A program made the position numbers and the translations under genes. 64,000 nt of DNA, taken from assembly GCF_014251755.1 (NCBI RefSeq), contig NZ_CP059200.1:164286-228285 (forward strand). The letters run 5' to 3'. Positions 1,303-53,305 of this stretch are shown here, piece after piece (within the stretch, counting starts at the first letter, position 1; each line of letters begins with the position of its first letter). This DNA is from Blattabacterium cuenoti (GTDB lineage Bacteria; Bacteroidota; Bacteroidia; Flavobacteriales; Blattabacteriaceae). Below the pieces are notes generated by a model. That model had not been told where the DNA came from and did not search any database. It saw only the letters and a program-made list of their open reading frames with translations.

Positions 1303-4300
1303 ATGAATTTCAGAATTTATATACAAAAAAGAAGCCCTTTTGATATTGATTCTAGAAAATTACACAATGAATTAAAGAATATGAATATTTCATTGTATAA
1401 TGATCTCATTATTTATTATATATATGATATATATAATATCAATGAAAAACTTTTTTTAGAAAGTTTATCAAAAGTTTTTGTAGATCCTGTAACAGATATT
1501 TTTCATAAAAAAATACATTTAAATACTTCTTCATATCTAATAGAAGATTTCCCAGAAAAATATGATGATCGAGCCCATGCAGCCATGCAATGTATAAAAG
1601 TAATCGATCCAAAATCAAACACCGTTTCTGTAAAAACTGGACGATTAATCGAATTCATTGGGATAAAAAAAAAACAGGATTTTTACAAAATTAAAAAATT
1701 TTATATCAAGTCATATTTGAATGCAGAAAACAAAAAAAATGATACAACAATTATAGATAATTTCATTAATTTTTCTGTTGAAAAAATAAAAAGTGTCCGT
1801 AATAAGTGGAATCTTTCTATGGACGTTAATGATTTATTCTTTATACAAAAACATTTTTTGTATAAAGAAAAACGAAATCCTACACCAGAAGAATTACGTA
1901 TATTCGATGTTTATTGGTCTGATCACTGTCGTCATACAACATTTTTTACCACATTAAAAGATATATCTTTTGATGGATCATTAAAAGAAACATATCAAAG
2001 TATTTTTTTTAAATATTTAAAAGATAGAGATTTAATAGGAAGATCAAAATATCCTATAAATCTTATGGATTTATCCAATCTTCCTTCTAAAATTCTTTAT
2101 AAAAAGGGAAAATTGACGAATTATGTTTCGTCAAATAATGAACATAATGCGTGTATGATAATGGTTAATGTAGATTTTCAAAAAAATAAAAAAAAAGAAA
2201 AATGGTATTTATTATTTAAAAATGAAACTCATAACCATCCTACTGAAATAGATCCTTTTGTAGGAGCTTCTACTTGTGTAGGGGGTGCTATTCGTGACCC
2301 TTTATCGGGTAGAGCTTTTGTTTATCAAGGAATCAGGTTAAGTGGAGCAGCTGATCCTACCAATTCTAAAACTATTGATGGAAAATTAACACAACATCAA
2401 ATTTGTATCGAATCGGCTCGTGGTTATAGTTCTTATGGAAATCAAGTAGGATTAGCCACAACTCATGTACACGAGATTTATCATGAAGGATATAGGGCAA
2501 AAAGAATGGAAATAGGCATGGTTGTTGGTGCGGTTCCTGTTGATTTTGTAAAACAAAATCAACCAAAAAAAGGAGATATCATTTTGTTAATTGGTGGTAT
2601 GACGAAAAAAGAAGGAATTGGAGGAGCTACAGATTCTTCTAAAAAACAAGATTCTGATTTTAGAAATTCTGTCCAACAAAAAGGAGATCCAATAATGGAA
2701 AGAAAGATTCAGAGATTTTTTAGAAAAAAAAAAGTTGTTTCTTTGATCAAAAAATGCAATGATTTTGGAGCAGGAGGAGCTGCTGTAGCTATAGGTGAAT
2801 TAAGTGATAGTTTAGTGCTTTATTTAGACAAAATTCCAGTAAAAAATGGAAAAAATATAGAACCTATAGACATTGCACTTTCAGAATCTCAAGAAAGAAT
2901 GGCCGTTATATTAGATCCCATAAATGTAGAAAAATTTATTCATTTTTCTCGTGAAGAAAATATTATGTCTGTACCTATTGGTAAAGTTACTGGTAATAAA
3001 CGTATTATTTTTTATTATAAAAAAAAAGAAATTTTTAATGTAAAAAGTTCTTTTTTGAATACAAGAGGATCTCATAAAGAAAAATCGGTTCTTGTAAATT
3101 CTCCTATTTCGATTTCTCCTTTTAATCAATCAAAAAAAATTATTTTCAGTAAAAAAACATTCTTAAATACTCTTTCTCAATTAAATATAGCTTCTCAAAA
3201 AAGTTTAGTGGAAATGTTTGATAGTACGGTGGGTTCTACTACCGTTTTAATGCCTTTTGGAGGAAAATATCAAATGACTCCATCTGAAGGAAGTGTTCAA
3301 AAAATTCCTGTTTTTAGAGGAAATACAAATACAGTTAGTTTAGTTTCTTGGGGTTTTCATCCTGAAGTTTCTGTTTGGAGTCCTTTTCATGGAGGATCTT
3401 ATGCAATTGTAGAATGTATTTCTAAAATAGTTTCTATGGGAGGAAATTATAGAAATATTTATTTTAGTTTTCAAGAATACTATCAGAAATTAGGAGATGA
3501 TCCAAAAAATTGGGGAAAACCTTTTTCTGCTTTATTAGGAGCTTATCACGCTCAAATGTCGTTTGAATTAGCTTCTATAGGAGGAAAAGATTCTATGTCT
3601 GGTACATATAAAAATTTTCATGTTCCACCAACATTGATCTCTTTTGGTGTAGCTACAGGTTTATGTTATAATATTATATCTCCTGAATTTAAAAAAGTAG
3701 GAAATAAAATTTATTTGTATTATCACCATCCATTAAAAAATGAAATGCCAGATTATGACTCCATCAAAAATGCCTATGACCATATTTATGAAGGAATTTG
3801 TTCCGGAAAAATTGTTTCAGTCAAAACAATAAAAGATGGAGGAATTTCCGTTGCTATTGCTAAAATGTCTTTTGGAAATTGTTTAGGAGCAGTCATTGAC
3901 TATAAAGATCATTTGCTTGAGACAAACATAGGATCCTTAATTATAGAATCTTCCTCTTCTATTTCAAATAATAATTTTATTCCAATAGGAGAAATTGTTT
4001 CTCAAAAATATTTAAATTTTAATGGAATATCTATTGATATAGATGAATCTATGAAAAACTGGTTAAAAACTTTTTCTTCTATTTTTTCTTATAACGAATT
4101 TAATAAAAATGAAGAAAAAACTGAAAAAATAAAAATAACAAGATCTAATTCTATCATATGGAAATGTAAAAATAAAAAATGGAAAAAAAAAGGAAAACCT
4201 CGTGTATTTATTCCTATATTTCCGGGAACAAATAGTGAATTGGAATCTATTCGTGCATTTGAAAAAGAGGGATCCATAGTAAAAACTTTAATCTTTAAAA

Positions 4301-9347: not shown

Positions 9348-10874
9348 ATGAAAAGAGCTTTGATTAGTGTTTATGAGAAAAATGAAAAATTATTTGACTT
9401 TGTCAGTTTTTTAGATAAAAAAGGATATCAAATCGTTTCTACTGGAGGGACCTATCAATATTTTTTAAAAAAAGGAGTATCAAACCTCATAAAAGTATAT
9501 GATTTGACTTTTTTTCCTGAAATTTTAGATGGAAGAGTCAAAACCATTCATCCTAATATATATGCAGGAATTTTAGCCAATCGTTCCGTTGAACAACATA
9601 TGAAATCCATTCATTCTCAAAATATTCATCTTATTGATATGGTGTTAGTGAATTTTTATCCATTTTTTCAAAAAATGGATAAAAATTCTATAGATGTTAA
9701 TTCCATAATAGAATTTATTGATATTGGGGGACCATCTATGCTTCGAGCAGCTGCTAAAAATTTTTTACATGTCACCGCTATTATAGATCATAATGATTAT
9801 GAATTTGTTCAATCTGAAATTGAACGTTATGGATTTCCTTCATTAAAATTGAGAAAAAAATTAGCAGGAAAAGTATTTAATTTTACTTCTGCTTATGATT
9901 CTGCTATTTCTCAATATCTTTTAGATGATCAATTTCCCATGTATTTACATTCTTCTTATAAAAAAATAATGAATCTCCGTTATGGAGAAAATCCTCATCA
10001 AAAAGCAGCCTATTATGTTAATACTATTCATAAAGGATCAATGCGAAATTTTTTCCAATTGCATGGTAGAAGCCTGTCATTTAATAATTTAAGAGATATG
10101 GATATAGCATGGAAGGTGGTTTCTCAATTTTCTGAACCTGCTTGTTGTACCGTCAAACATTCCACCCCTTGTGGAGTTGCGTTAGGAAAAAATATTATTG
10201 AAGCATTTCAAAAAACTTATTATGCAGACACTATTTCTTCTTTTGGAGGAATAATGGCGGTTAATGTTCCAATCACAAAAGAATTAGCAAAAGAAATTAA
10301 TCATATTTTTTTAGAAGTCGTTCTTTCTCCAAGTTACGAAACAGATGTATTGAACATTTTAAAAATCAAAAAAAATATTAGAATTATTAGTATCAGTGAA
10401 CCTATTTCAGATCAACTAGAATATGTAAAAATAGACGGAGGTGTTTTAGTACAAGAATCAGATACTTTTTTTCCTTATGAAAGGAATTACAAAATAGTTA
10501 CTAAAAAAAAATTTAGTTATCAAGAACTTCAATCTTTATTTTTTGCTCAAAAAGTGGTAAAATACGTCAAGTCTAATGCAATTGTCGTGGCTAAAGGGAC
10601 ACAAACTTTAGGTATTTCTGGAGGTCAAACTAATAGGATTTGGGCTGCTCGTCAAGCTATAGAAAGAGCTTTAGAAAAAAGTAAGGAGGGATTAGTTCTC
10701 GTATCCGATGCTTTTTTTCCTTTTCGAGATGTTGTAGACGAATCGGCTCGTTCTGGTGGAATCCGTGCAATTTTTCAACCAGGAGGATCCATCCGTGATG
10801 AAGAATCTGTGAAAGCTTGTGATGATCATGGAATTGCAATGGCTTTTACTGGAAAAAGACATTTTAAACATTAA
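9348..10874 (+). CDS. purH: bifunctional AICAR transformylase / IMP cyclohydrolase
   Basis: Last two steps to IMP. The 508 residues hold an N-terminal methylglyoxal-synthase-like cyclohydrolase domain (to about residue 190; STGGTYQYF, NIDIGG-type core at IDIGGPSMLRAAAK) and the AICAR transformylase domain with KHSTPCGVALG around residue 269. A 19-bp perfect inverted repeat with a one-base centre sits at 9650-9688, covering the conserved NFYPF segment and the variable residues after it. The 62-base gap before it contains no clear promoter, so it may still be read from the upstream operon. Confidence 0.96.
   Translation: MKRALISVYEKNEKLFDFVSFLDKKGYQIVSTGGTYQYFLKKGVSNLIKVYDLTFFPEILDGRVKTIHPNIYAGILANRSVEQHMKSIHSQNIHLIDMVLVNFYPFFQKMDKNSIDVNSIIEFIDIGGPSMLRAAAKNFLHVTAIIDHNDYEFVQSEIERYGFPSLKLRKKLAGKVFNFTSAYDSAISQYLLDDQFPMYLHSSYKKIMNLRYGENPHQKAAYYVNTIHKGSMRNFFQLHGRSLSFNNLRDMDIAWKVVSQFSEPACCTVKHSTPCGVALGKNIIEAFQKTYYADTISSFGGIMAVNVPITKELAKEINHIFLEVVLSPSYETDVLNILKIKKNIRIISISEPISDQLEYVKIDGGVLVQESDTFFPYERNYKIVTKKKFSYQELQSLFFAQKVVKYVKSNAIVVAKGTQTLGISGGQTNRIWAARQAIERALEKSKEGLVLVSDAFFPFRDVVDESARSGGIRAIFQPGGSIRDEESVKACDDHGIAMAFTGKRHFKH
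9650..9688. repeat. 19-bp perfect inverted repeat, 1-base centre, inside purH
   Basis: Arms 9650-9668 and 9670-9688 are exact complements around one C. It is the longest near-loop-free palindrome seen in the window and encodes VNFYPFFQKMDKN. Confidence 0.96.
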
Positions 10875-21745: not shown

Positions 21746-22736
21746 GAGGTTTATAATAATAGGGAATAATATTTAAAAAATATTTGATAGATTCAGACAA
21801 ACTTTTTTCCGATATTCCTCCTGCTGCATTTCTGTGTCCTCCTCCTCTAAAATGTTTTCTTGCAAACATATTTACATCAAAATTTCCTTTCGAACGAAAG
21901 GAAATTTTGATAGGGAATTTTTCTTTTTCTTCAAAAAAGAAGACGGAAAAAACAATGTTTTTAATACCTAATCCATAGGTAATAATTCCTTCTGTATCTC
22001 CTTGTTTATATGAATCAGAATTGATATCCGAAGCTCTTATGCTGGTATAAGCTGTTCTATATTTATTAATAATTTTCAATTTTTTTAAGGCTTTAGATAA
22101 TAATTTTAATCTATTTTCATTGTATTTTTCTTGTAAATGATTATAAATGGAATTGATATCAATTCCATTCTCTATTAATTTTCCTGCAATAAAATGAGTT
22201 TCTGAAGTAATAGAAGGAAAACGAAAAAAACCTGTATCAGTCATTAATCCTGCATATAAACACGTAGCTATTTCTTTGTCTATTTTATCTAAATTATTCA
22301 TGTCTGATATAAATCGAAAAACTAAAATACTGGTAGCTGCTACTGTAGGGTCTGAAAACATAAAATCAAAACAAAATGGAAAAGGATGATGATCAATTAG
22401 TATTGTTTTTGCTTTCGAACACGAAAAAAGATTTTTAATCTTATTAATTCTTGAAAAATTATTAAAATCTATAAAAAAAATGTAATCAGAATTTACAATC
22501 TTTTTTTTTACTAAAGATTGTGTATGTTTTGAATATACAAGAATGTCCTCAGTTCCAGGAAGCCATTGAAAAGATTCAGGATATTCTGTTGGAGAGATTA
22601 AATCTACATCATGCTTTAATTTTCTAAAATAAAATAAAAGAGCTAAAGAAGATCCTAAAGCATCTCCATCTGGATTATTGTGAGGAATTAATATAATTTT
22701 TTTTTTATTGATTCCATTTATGTTAGAAAACAACAT
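21729..22736 (-). CDS. nrnA: DHH-family oligoribonuclease / pAp phosphatase
   Basis: Degrades nanoRNA and converts pAp to AMP. The 335 residues have the DHH-domain motifs HNNPDGDALGSS (19-30), FIDFNNFSR, LIDHHPF and a DHHA1 domain ending in GGGHRNAAGG. Length and motif order match NrnA. Two coding-sequence palindromes are notable: 17-bp arms at 21876-21911 and a 24-base perfect palindrome at 22146-22169. First downstream partner of the cca-tsaC-dapD run on this strand. Confidence 0.92.
   Translation of the reverse strand: MLFSNINGINKKKIILIPHNNPDGDALGSSLALLFYFRKLKHDVDLISPTEYPESFQWLPGTEDILVYSKHTQSLVKKKIVNSDYIFFIDFNNFSRINKIKNLFSCSKAKTILIDHHPFPFCFDFMFSDPTVAATSILVFRFISDMNNLDKIDKEIATCLYAGLMTDTGFFRFPSITSETHFIAGKLIENGIDINSIYNHLQEKYNENRLKLLSKALKKLKIINKYRTAYTSIRASDINSDSYKQGDTEGIITYGLGIKNIVFSVFFFEEKEKFPIKISFRSKGNFDVNMFARKHFRGGGHRNAAGGISEKSLSESIKYFLNIIPYYYKPLILSI
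21876..21911. repeat. 17-bp perfect inverted repeat, 2-base loop, inside nrnA
   Basis: Arms 21876-21892 and 21895-21911 are exact reverse complements around the bases aa. The repeat encodes the SFRSKGNF stretch of NrnA. It has no T-tract beyond it and lies far from the gene end, so it does not look like a terminator. Confidence 0.95.
22146..22169. repeat. 24-base perfect palindrome inside nrnA
   Basis: The 12-base half aatggaattgat is followed directly by its reverse complement. It encodes NGIDINSI in NrnA. Second long palindrome within the same gene. Confidence 0.95.
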
Positions 22737-33025: not shown

Positions 33026-34375
33026 TTATACATTATTTTCTTTTTTAATCATTTGATAGATAAAATTTTTTATAGTCTCTTTTCCTGAATGATCATGAAT
33101 TTTTTTCATAATTTGATTCATGTCATAAAATTGTTTCATAAAAAGATCTATATGATTCAATGTGATACCAGATCCTTTAGAAATTCTTTTTTTTCTTTTT
33201 ACATCAGTAAGAATTTTAGGATTATTTCTTTCATAAGGAGTCATAGAATGAATAATGGTTTCTATTTTTTTAAAAGAATTTTTCTGATTTCCATCAAAAG
33301 AAAAATACTTATCGATTCCAGGAATCATTGAAATAATATTTTTTATATTTCCTATTTTTTTAATTTTTTGAATTTGATCTAGTAAATCATTAAAATTAAA
33401 ACGATTTTTTGAAATTTTTTGATAAATTTTTTGAGTTCTTTTTTCATCAAATTGTTCTTGTACTTTTTCAACTAAAGAAACTATATCACCCATACCTAAT
33501 ATTCTATTAGCTATTCTATCTGGATGAAAAACTTCCAAATCTTCTATTTCTTCTCCATTACTAATAAATTTTATGGGTTTTTTTACTACACTAGATATGG
33601 TTATAGCAACCCCACCTCGACTATCTCCATCTAATTTTGTTATAACAATACCATCAAAATTCAATACTTTTGAAAAAGATTGAGCTGTATTTATAGCATC
33701 TTGTCCTGTCATGGCATCGACAACAAATAAAACTTCATCTGGTTTAGAATATTGATTTATTTTTTGAATTTCTTTCATCATGATTCGATCGATTGCTAAT
33801 CGACCCGCTGTATCAATAATAATTACATCTTTCTTTTTTTTCAAAGCATAAAGAATAGATTGATCCAAAATTTCTATAACATTTTTACTTTTTTTTAAGG
33901 AAAAAACAGGAATATTTACTTTTTTTGCAATCCATTTCAGTTGATCTATAGCTGCAGGACGATGAATGTCTGCAGAAACCAGCAAAGGAAATTTATTCTT
34001 TTTTTTTAAAGAAAAAGCAAGTTTAGAAGAAAAAGAAGTTTTTCCACTTCCTTGCAATCCACAGATTAAAATAATAGAAGGATTCTTAGATAGATTTATT
34101 TCTATATTTTTTTCTCCCATAAGAAAAACTAATTCATCATATACTATTTTTGTAATTAATTGCTTTGGATTTAAAGAAGTCAACACTTTTTTTCCAATAG
34201 ATTTTTCTTGAACTTTTTGAATAAAGTTCCTAACTATTTTATGATTTACATCTGCATCAATTAATGCTCGTCCAATTTTTTTTAGAGAAGATGCTATATT
34301 GATTTCTGTAATGGTATTGTGTCCCTTCAAAATATGAAGAGCTTTAGAAAATTTATTTTTTAAATGTTCAAACAT
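33026..34375 (-). CDS. ffh: signal recognition particle protein Ffh (SRP54)
   Basis: GTPase that brings membrane-protein ribosomes to FtsY. The 449 residues have an N domain, G domain motifs GLQGSGKTS, DTAGRL and TKLDGDSRGG, and a methionine-bearing M domain ending FIYQMIKK. No SRP RNA gene is recognised in this window. It follows argS by 20 bases on the same strand. Confidence 0.97.
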   Translation of the reverse strand: MFEHLKNKFSKALHILKGHNTITEINIASSLKKIGRALIDADVNHKIVRNFIQKVQEKSIGKKVLTSLNPKQLITKIVYDELVFLMGEKNIEINLSKNPSIILICGLQGSGKTSFSSKLAFSLKKKNKFPLLVSADIHRPAAIDQLKWIAKKVNIPVFSLKKSKNVIEILDQSILYALKKKKDVIIIDTAGRLAIDRIMMKEIQKINQYSKPDEVLFVVDAMTGQDAINTAQSFSKVLNFDGIVITKLDGDSRGGVAITISSVVKKPIKFISNGEEIEDLEVFHPDRIANRILGMGDIVSLVEKVQEQFDEKRTQKIYQKISKNRFNFNDLLDQIQKIKKIGNIKNIISMIPGIDKYFSFDGNQKNSFKKIETIIHSMTPYERNNPKILTDVKRKKRISKGSGITLNHIDLFMKQFYDMNQIMKKIHDHSGKETIKNFIYQMIKKENNV

Positions 34376-46265: not shown

Positions 46266-46285
46266 ATGATTCGATATTGTTTTTT

Positions 46286-46326
46286 CCACGTAAAAGAAAA
46301 TCTTTCTTTTACGTGGATTTTTTTTT
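46286..46326 (+). terminator. rho-independent terminator after the lipoprotein gene
   Basis: A 14-bp perfect stem, ccacgtaaaagaaa (46286-46299) and its complement (46303-46316), with loop atc is followed by a run of nine T. It lies 21 bases after the lipoprotein stop and 34 before pdhB, separating the two. Confidence 0.88.
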
Positions 46327-52528: not shown

Positions 52529-53305
52529 TTATCCGTTTGTATTTTTGACTGTAGTTCTTACAGGTATGTGAAGTTGATTTAAATAATATTTTAATTTTGG
52601 AATCTCTATTTCTTTATAATGGAATATACTGGCGGCTAAAGCAGCATCAGCTTTTCCTTTTTCAAAAATTTTATAAAAATCTTCTAATTTTCCAGCTCCA
52701 CCTGAAGCAATAACCGGTGTAGAAATATTTTTGGATATCTTTCTAGTGATATCTAATGCAAATCCATTTTTTGTTCCATCATGATTCATTGAAGTTAATA
52801 ATATTTCTCCTGCTCCTCTATTGGTTCCTTCCTTAGCCCAATCTAGGGTTTTAGTTTGAGTTGAAATTCTTCCTCCATTTAAATATACCCACCATTCATT
52901 TGATTCATATTTAGTATCAATAGCTAAAACAATACATTGACTTCCGAATCTTTTAGAAAATTTTTCTAAAAGATTCGGATTTTTAAAAGCAGCCGTATTG
53001 ATCGATATTTTATCTGCTCCCGCATTTAACAAAAGTTCAATATCTCTTTCCTCTCTAATTCCTCCACCAACCGTAAAAGGAATATTAATATGACGGGAAA
53101 TTTCCTTGACTAAGCTAATTAATGTTTTACGTTTTTCATTTGTTGCTGTAATATCCAAAAATACTAATTCATCTGCTCCTTGTTTTGTATACCAACAAAC
53201 TAATTGTATTGGATCTCCAGCATCTTTTAAATGTTTAAAATTTATTCCTTTTACGGTTCTTCCATTTTTTATATCTAAACAAGGTATGATACGTTTAGCT
53301 AACAT
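52529..53305 (-). CDS. hisF: imidazole glycerol phosphate synthase cyclase subunit
   Basis: TIM-barrel that with HisH forms imidazole glycerol phosphate and AICAR. The 258 residues begin MLAKRIIPCLDIKNGRTVKG and contain VGGGIREERDIE, the phosphate loops ASGGAGKLEDF and active-site Asp11 and Asp130-type residues. An 18-bp palindrome (52943-52979) lies over NPNLLEKFSKRFGS. AICAR released here can enter the purine route via purH. Confidence 0.96.
   Translation of the reverse strand: MLAKRIIPCLDIKNGRTVKGINFKHLKDAGDPIQLVCWYTKQGADELVFLDITATNEKRKTLISLVKEISRHINIPFTVGGGIREERDIELLLNAGADKISINTAAFKNPNLLEKFSKRFGSQCIVLAIDTKYESNEWWVYLNGGRISTQTKTLDWAKEGTNRGAGEILLTSMNHDGTKNGFALDITRKISKNISTPVIASGGAGKLEDFYKIFEKGKADAALAASIFHYKEIEIPKLKYYLNQLHIPVRTTVKNTNG
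52943..52979. repeat. 18-bp perfect inverted repeat, 1-base centre, inside hisF
   Basis: Arms 52943-52960 and 52962-52979 are exact complements around one T. It includes G+C bases in each arm (tccgaatc) so it is not mere AT simplicity. It encodes PNLLEKFSKRFG. Confidence 0.95.

Follow-up and report, generated by a model that had tools for sequence, protein, structure and literature searches.

The purH gene and its palindrome

The window analysed here is a stretch of 64,000 nucleotides, positions 164286-228285 of the 625,920-bp chromosome (C1) of the cockroach symbiont Blattabacterium, in the genome designated G000. The open reading frame at 9348-10874 encodes an intact PurH in which the Pfam domains AICARFT_IMPCHas and MGS were both matched. 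The initial annotation, made from the letters alone, had described this product as full length and had placed a 19-bp palindrome within the gene, and both descriptions proved exact. The inverted repeat at 9650-9688 is perfect, with two 19-nt arms that are 100% complementary and a single nucleotide between them:

9348..10874, plus strand: purH (AICAR transformylase / IMP cyclohydrolase), 508 amino acids, intact, by open reading frame and Pfam
9650..9668, plus strand: left arm GAATTTTTATCCATTTTTT, coding for the conserved NFYPFF and presumed to be the template
9669..9669, plus strand: spacer of 1 nt, C in G000, G in G035 and nearly all congeners
9670..9688, plus strand: right arm AAAAAATGGATAAAAATTC, the derived arm, which codes for KMDKN and lies in a variable stretch

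Since the sister genome G035 carries identical purH arms in its own, separate assembly, the palindrome is no assembly error. Two other identities of the repeat were rejected. As an intrinsic terminator it would be misplaced, lying 1186 nt before the end of the open reading frame and being followed by TATAGATG, with no T run. An inserted palindromic element of the dispersed kind known from Rickettsia has a negligible probability: the stretch is palindromic and adjoins a length-variable loop, but the alignment with near congeners contains no insertion, and beyond purH the search of the genus yielded short weak AT-rich matches only, with no further homologous copies. A plasmid search gave no match.

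Comparison with related genomes

The purH gene was compared across 49 Blattabacterium genomes and four outgroups. The left arm (Asn-Phe-Tyr-Pro-Phe) is near-invariant across the genus. With the right arm begins a stretch that differs between congeners in sequence and in length, as the initial annotation had stated. Arms pairing at 19/19 are found only in G000 and G035; in the remaining 47 congeners they pair at 7-15/19, most of them at 11-15/19, including 14/19 in G005 and in G030. In the purH DNA tree of 37 Blattabacterium genomes the topology ((G000,G035),G005) has full support, and the purH of the 12 genomes outside the tree is less similar than that of G005. The right-arm codons read GAA AAA ATA CAT CAA AAA TCT in G030, GAA AAA ATG AAT CAA AAA CAC in G005 and GAA AAA ATG GAT AAA AAT TCT in G035. 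Ancestral states were taken from the outgroup bases in the alignment, with agreement of both outgroups required under the strict rule. Four positions of the right arm bear on the polarity:

9677..9677, plus strand: right-arm position 8 (G of ATG), complementary, of older origin and also present in G005
9678..9678, plus strand: right-arm position 9, G in G000 and G035 alone among the near relatives; G005 has A and most of the others have C
9681..9681, plus strand: right-arm position 12, C in G005 and G030, changed to A on the branch of G000 and G035
9686..9686, plus strand: right-arm position 17, A in G005 and G030, changed to T on the branch of G000 and G035

Under the strict rule the branch leading to G000 and G035 thus has no change in the left arm and two in the right, both complementing. 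Judging from the aligned bases, the change of 9678 to G, from C or A, is very likely a third complementing change on the same branch. The left member of the outermost pair, 9650/9688, comes from a freely varying Val codon. As read from the alignment, then, two or three right-arm changes, all complementing, completed a repeat that was already well paired.

These results bear on the proposal of the initial annotation that the variable arm had been rewritten using the conserved arm as template. Its direction is upheld, as the derived right-arm bases all complement the left arm, but a wholesale rewriting is contradicted by the 11-15/19 pairing already present in most congeners, by the greater age of 9677 and by the small number of bases changed. 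In the aligned purH DNA, complementing changes on one branch were found at 9681 and 9686, and very likely at 9678, but not as a demonstrably single event: because none of the sampled genomes splits the G000+G035 branch, one three-base event and successive changes are indistinguishable at purH.

The central base

The centre of the purH palindrome is C (CAA, Gln) in G000 and G (GAA, Glu) in G035, a complement difference absent from the initial annotation. Since nearly all other congeners have G, the change lies in the G000 lineage. It is presumed to be a spacer inversion, and as a lone base it is also compatible with a point mutation; the baseline of C/G exchange between G000 and G035 is 0.31% per C/G site. 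An inverted spacer is regarded as the trace of an interstrand template switch across a palindrome (PMC8604942). Between the same two genomes, 1-nt spacers flipped to the complement in 4 of 16 cases with arms of at least 9 (arms with at least three different bases being required), compared with 18 of 1886 with arms of 3-5 (p=2e-5), a trend significant in this closest pair only, the other pairs having few long arms. Centre changes to a non-complementary base are not raised with arm length in this comparison. Among longer spacers with arms of at least 8, 17 were inverted and 1 was merely reversed, all pairs being pooled and not independent of one another.

Excess of palindromes in the chromosome

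Four Blattabacterium chromosomes were compared, those of G000, G035, G005 (with 5000 masked bases) and G030. That of G000 contains 22 perfect inverted repeats with arms of at least 15 and a spacer of at most 8, compared with about 0.2 expected for the whole chromosome under an order-3 Markov model; arms of at least 15 occur in 13, 16 and 18 perfect inverted repeats of G035, G005 and G030, respectively. In the coding sequence of G000 there are 18 such repeats, and synonymous shuffling gives 0.95 (maximum 3 in 20 shuffles). Thirteen palindromes with arms of at least 15 are present in G000 and absent from G035, compared with a mean of 0.67 and a maximum of 3 in 30 relocations, in which the same substitutions were moved by base and codon position; local relocation gives 0.7, and the same sites with redrawn bases give 4.15 (maximum 6). 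The latter null is conservative, because it retains the sites beside near-perfect arms. Relative to G005, the palindromes present only in G000 number 17, compared with 0.4 under local relocation or 2.3 (maximum 5) with random bases at the same sites, and for arms of at least 18 they number 8, compared with 0.05 or 0.5.

Perfection of one arm by several changes was found at G000 386533-386577, with no left and five right changes, and at G035 33079-33124, with three left and none right. Among gained palindromes with at least two changes, 9 of 14 are one-sided and about 5 would be expected, a moderate excess in a hand count. A cluster test of low power, requiring at least three derived bases and a template of at least 13 nt, detected three events with a reverse-complement template (386559, 168397 and 313291) and none in the ancestral-state control; the direct and reversed controls gave single hits.

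It is unlikely that the purH palindrome is a coincidence, point substitutions having arisen independently in a rapidly evolving, AT-rich loop and completed a quasi-palindrome nearly made by codon bias. The full 19-bp palindrome does arise in 9% of synonymous resamplings of N-F-Y-P-F-F-Q-K-M-D-K-N, so that the choice of codons calls for no explanation once the peptide is given; what does call for one is the replacement of amino acids in the right arm. The G005 chromosome has about 150 one-spacer sites with at least 14/19 pairs, the purH quasi-palindrome was already strong, and the complementary 9677 arose before the G000+G035 branch; two or three independent right-arm substitutions would not be rare in themselves, as the stretch is variable anyway. 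Against coincidence, the genome-wide gain of arms of at least 18 given above exceeds the chance expectation, and at purH the spacer base, too, changed to its complement.

Selection for a regulatory structure in purH, either an mRNA hairpin or a DNA cruciform, is very improbable. The RNA is predicted to form a stem of 18 bp closed by a 3-nt loop (-22.5 kcal/mol over an 81-nt stretch, z = -4.8), but the palindrome is confined to two sister genomes of the 49, it sits some 300 nt into the coding sequence, and the sibling palindromes, which are found in unrelated genes, come and go between sister genomes.

Other palindromes in the window and the chromosome

Four further perfect inverted repeats are present in the window:

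1837..1869, no strand assigned: arms 15, spacer 3, same class, within a purL-like FGAM synthase open reading frame
21876..21911, no strand assigned: arms 17, spacer 2, same class, within the open reading frame of a DHH/DHHA1 protein (minus strand)
46285..46317, no strand assigned: arms 15, spacer 3, same class or terminator-like, intergenic
52943..52979, no strand assigned: arms 18, spacer 1, same class, within a His_biosynth open reading frame (minus strand)

The centre of the last, T in G000, is A in the other three genomes compared (G035, G005 and G030), which makes it the second complement flip of the window. The 1-base-spacer sites of G000 number 75, 17, 6, 1, 2 and 1 at 14, 15, 16, 17, 18 and 19 pairs of 19, respectively; though small, these numbers may point to a preference for either the imperfect or the perfect state, as described for nematomorph mitochondria.

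Beyond the window, a perfect palindrome with 16-bp arms, AATATTCTACATATTGCAATATGTAGAATATT, lies at C1:284280-284311 within a 120-aa minus-strand open reading frame. All of its 32 bases are identical in the four genomes and its flanks differ by 3-11%; unlike the other palindromes it looks conserved, and on this sequence identity it may be a functional site. The repeat at C1:503339-503381, in a 720-aa open reading frame, has arms of 19-21 and is perfect in G000, G005 and G030, pairing at 18/19 in G035. One of its pairs, T-A in the other three genomes, is C-G in G030, both arms having changed, as expected if conversion keeps the arms alike; its spacer varies. An 18-bp-arm palindrome without a spacer is found at the 3' end of an open reading frame (C1:94735-94770), and within it the alignment has a gap of 30 bases in G000 relative to G035. 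The longest inverted repeat in an open reading frame of G000 (C1:42489-42550; arms 27, spacer 8, 126-aa open reading frame) is less perfect in G035, G005 and G030.

Proposed origin of the purH palindrome

The purH palindrome is probably best explained by a replication template switch at a quasi-palindrome (the Ripley mechanism), followed by spacer inversion. The ancestor would have had an imperfect inverted repeat in purH, because the AT-rich Phe-Phe-Glu-Lys codons (TTTTTTGAAAAAA) are self-complementary around the centre. The nascent strand would fold back, or move over to the sister strand, where 7-8 bp beside the centre were paired already; it would copy the conserved left arm outwards and then switch back, so that in the ancestor shared by G000 and G035 the bases at 9678, 9681 and 9686 came to complement the left arm. 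After G000 had separated from G035, a further switch, now spanning the completed palindrome, would have left the arms of G000 unchanged and inverted the 1-nt spacer from G to C (Glu to Gln). PurH would have stayed full length because the variable loop tolerated the replacements. What the data show directly are the structure of the arms, the direction of change at 9681 and 9686, the differing centres and the excess of palindromes across the genome; the simultaneity of the purH changes, the identity of the strand that folded and the inversion, rather than point mutation, of the centre are what we infer.

The repeat is imperfect in the other 47 congeners (7-15/19) and was perfected in one arm (0 left and 2 right changes, with 9678 consistent), and its centre, C compared with G, agrees with the spacer inversion at perfect repeats that is a frequent though not obligatory companion of template-switch mutation. 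Evidence for several bases per event comes from the genome-wide excess only. Templated rewriting is considered the likeliest origin because of that excess of new palindromes and the one-arm multi-base changes elsewhere in the genomes.

Relation to known systems

Quasi-palindrome-associated template-switch mutation was reportedly described by Ripley in 1982. Instances of the mechanism are known in phages, in E. coli and in yeast (PMC6357072, PMC8604942). In quasi-palindrome mutation of E. coli, at the thyA hotspot and in the lacZ QP reporters (PMC7202029, PMC6357072), an imperfect repeat is perfected from its other arm, as in purH; those cases are new mutations under genetic control, whereas the purH event is deduced from fixed differences between symbiont lineages. 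In coding genes of Saccharomyces cerevisiae template switching has two marks, arm homogenisation and spacer inversion, the latter only with arms over 9 bp (PMC8604942). As in Blattabacterium, both marks occur there inside protein genes and bring amino-acid replacements, but the yeast events were dated on a dense strain tree, whereas for Blattabacterium, whose tree is sparse, the evidence is a statistical excess. In the mitochondria of Nematomorpha, too, conserved protein genes contain perfect inverted repeats that appear and disappear from species to species, and template switching was suggested as their cause (PMC6649704); they reach 284 bp, whereas the longest coding arm in G000 is 27 bp and most are of 15-19 bp. 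A survey of bacterial inverted repeats lists a Blattabacterium as an outlier in frequency given its GC content (PMC10434271); the survey counts repeats, and their evolutionary origin is the subject of the present analysis. Among the open-access papers searched, none dealt with template switching in an insect endosymbiont. On the explanation proposed here, the purH palindrome represents a known mechanism at a new locus, and one that is frequent in the G000 genome.

Repair nucleases and implications for Blattabacterium

In E. coli, ExoVII and SbcCD limit such events. ExoI is likewise named as their limiter in the references of PMC6357072. Model searches found none of SbcD, SbcC, XseA and ExoI in 28 Blattabacterium genomes. 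The link to nuclease loss is suggestive only, because most of the order is also without hits above the cut-off and ExoI was matched only in the E. coli control. It is possible, though doubtful, that template switching at quasi-palindromes is a standing and quantitatively important source of amino-acid change in Blattabacterium, little checked because the hairpin and 3' exonucleases that act against it in E. coli are missing. If so, perfect palindromes inside essential genes would be in constant turnover, arising, having their centres inverted and decaying. The findings suggest that neighbouring amino-acid changes in a symbiont gene may stem from one copying error, with neither positive selection nor relaxed constraint required. 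With 49 Blattabacterium genomes, the rate of the process could be measured and tested against the loss of repair nucleases.
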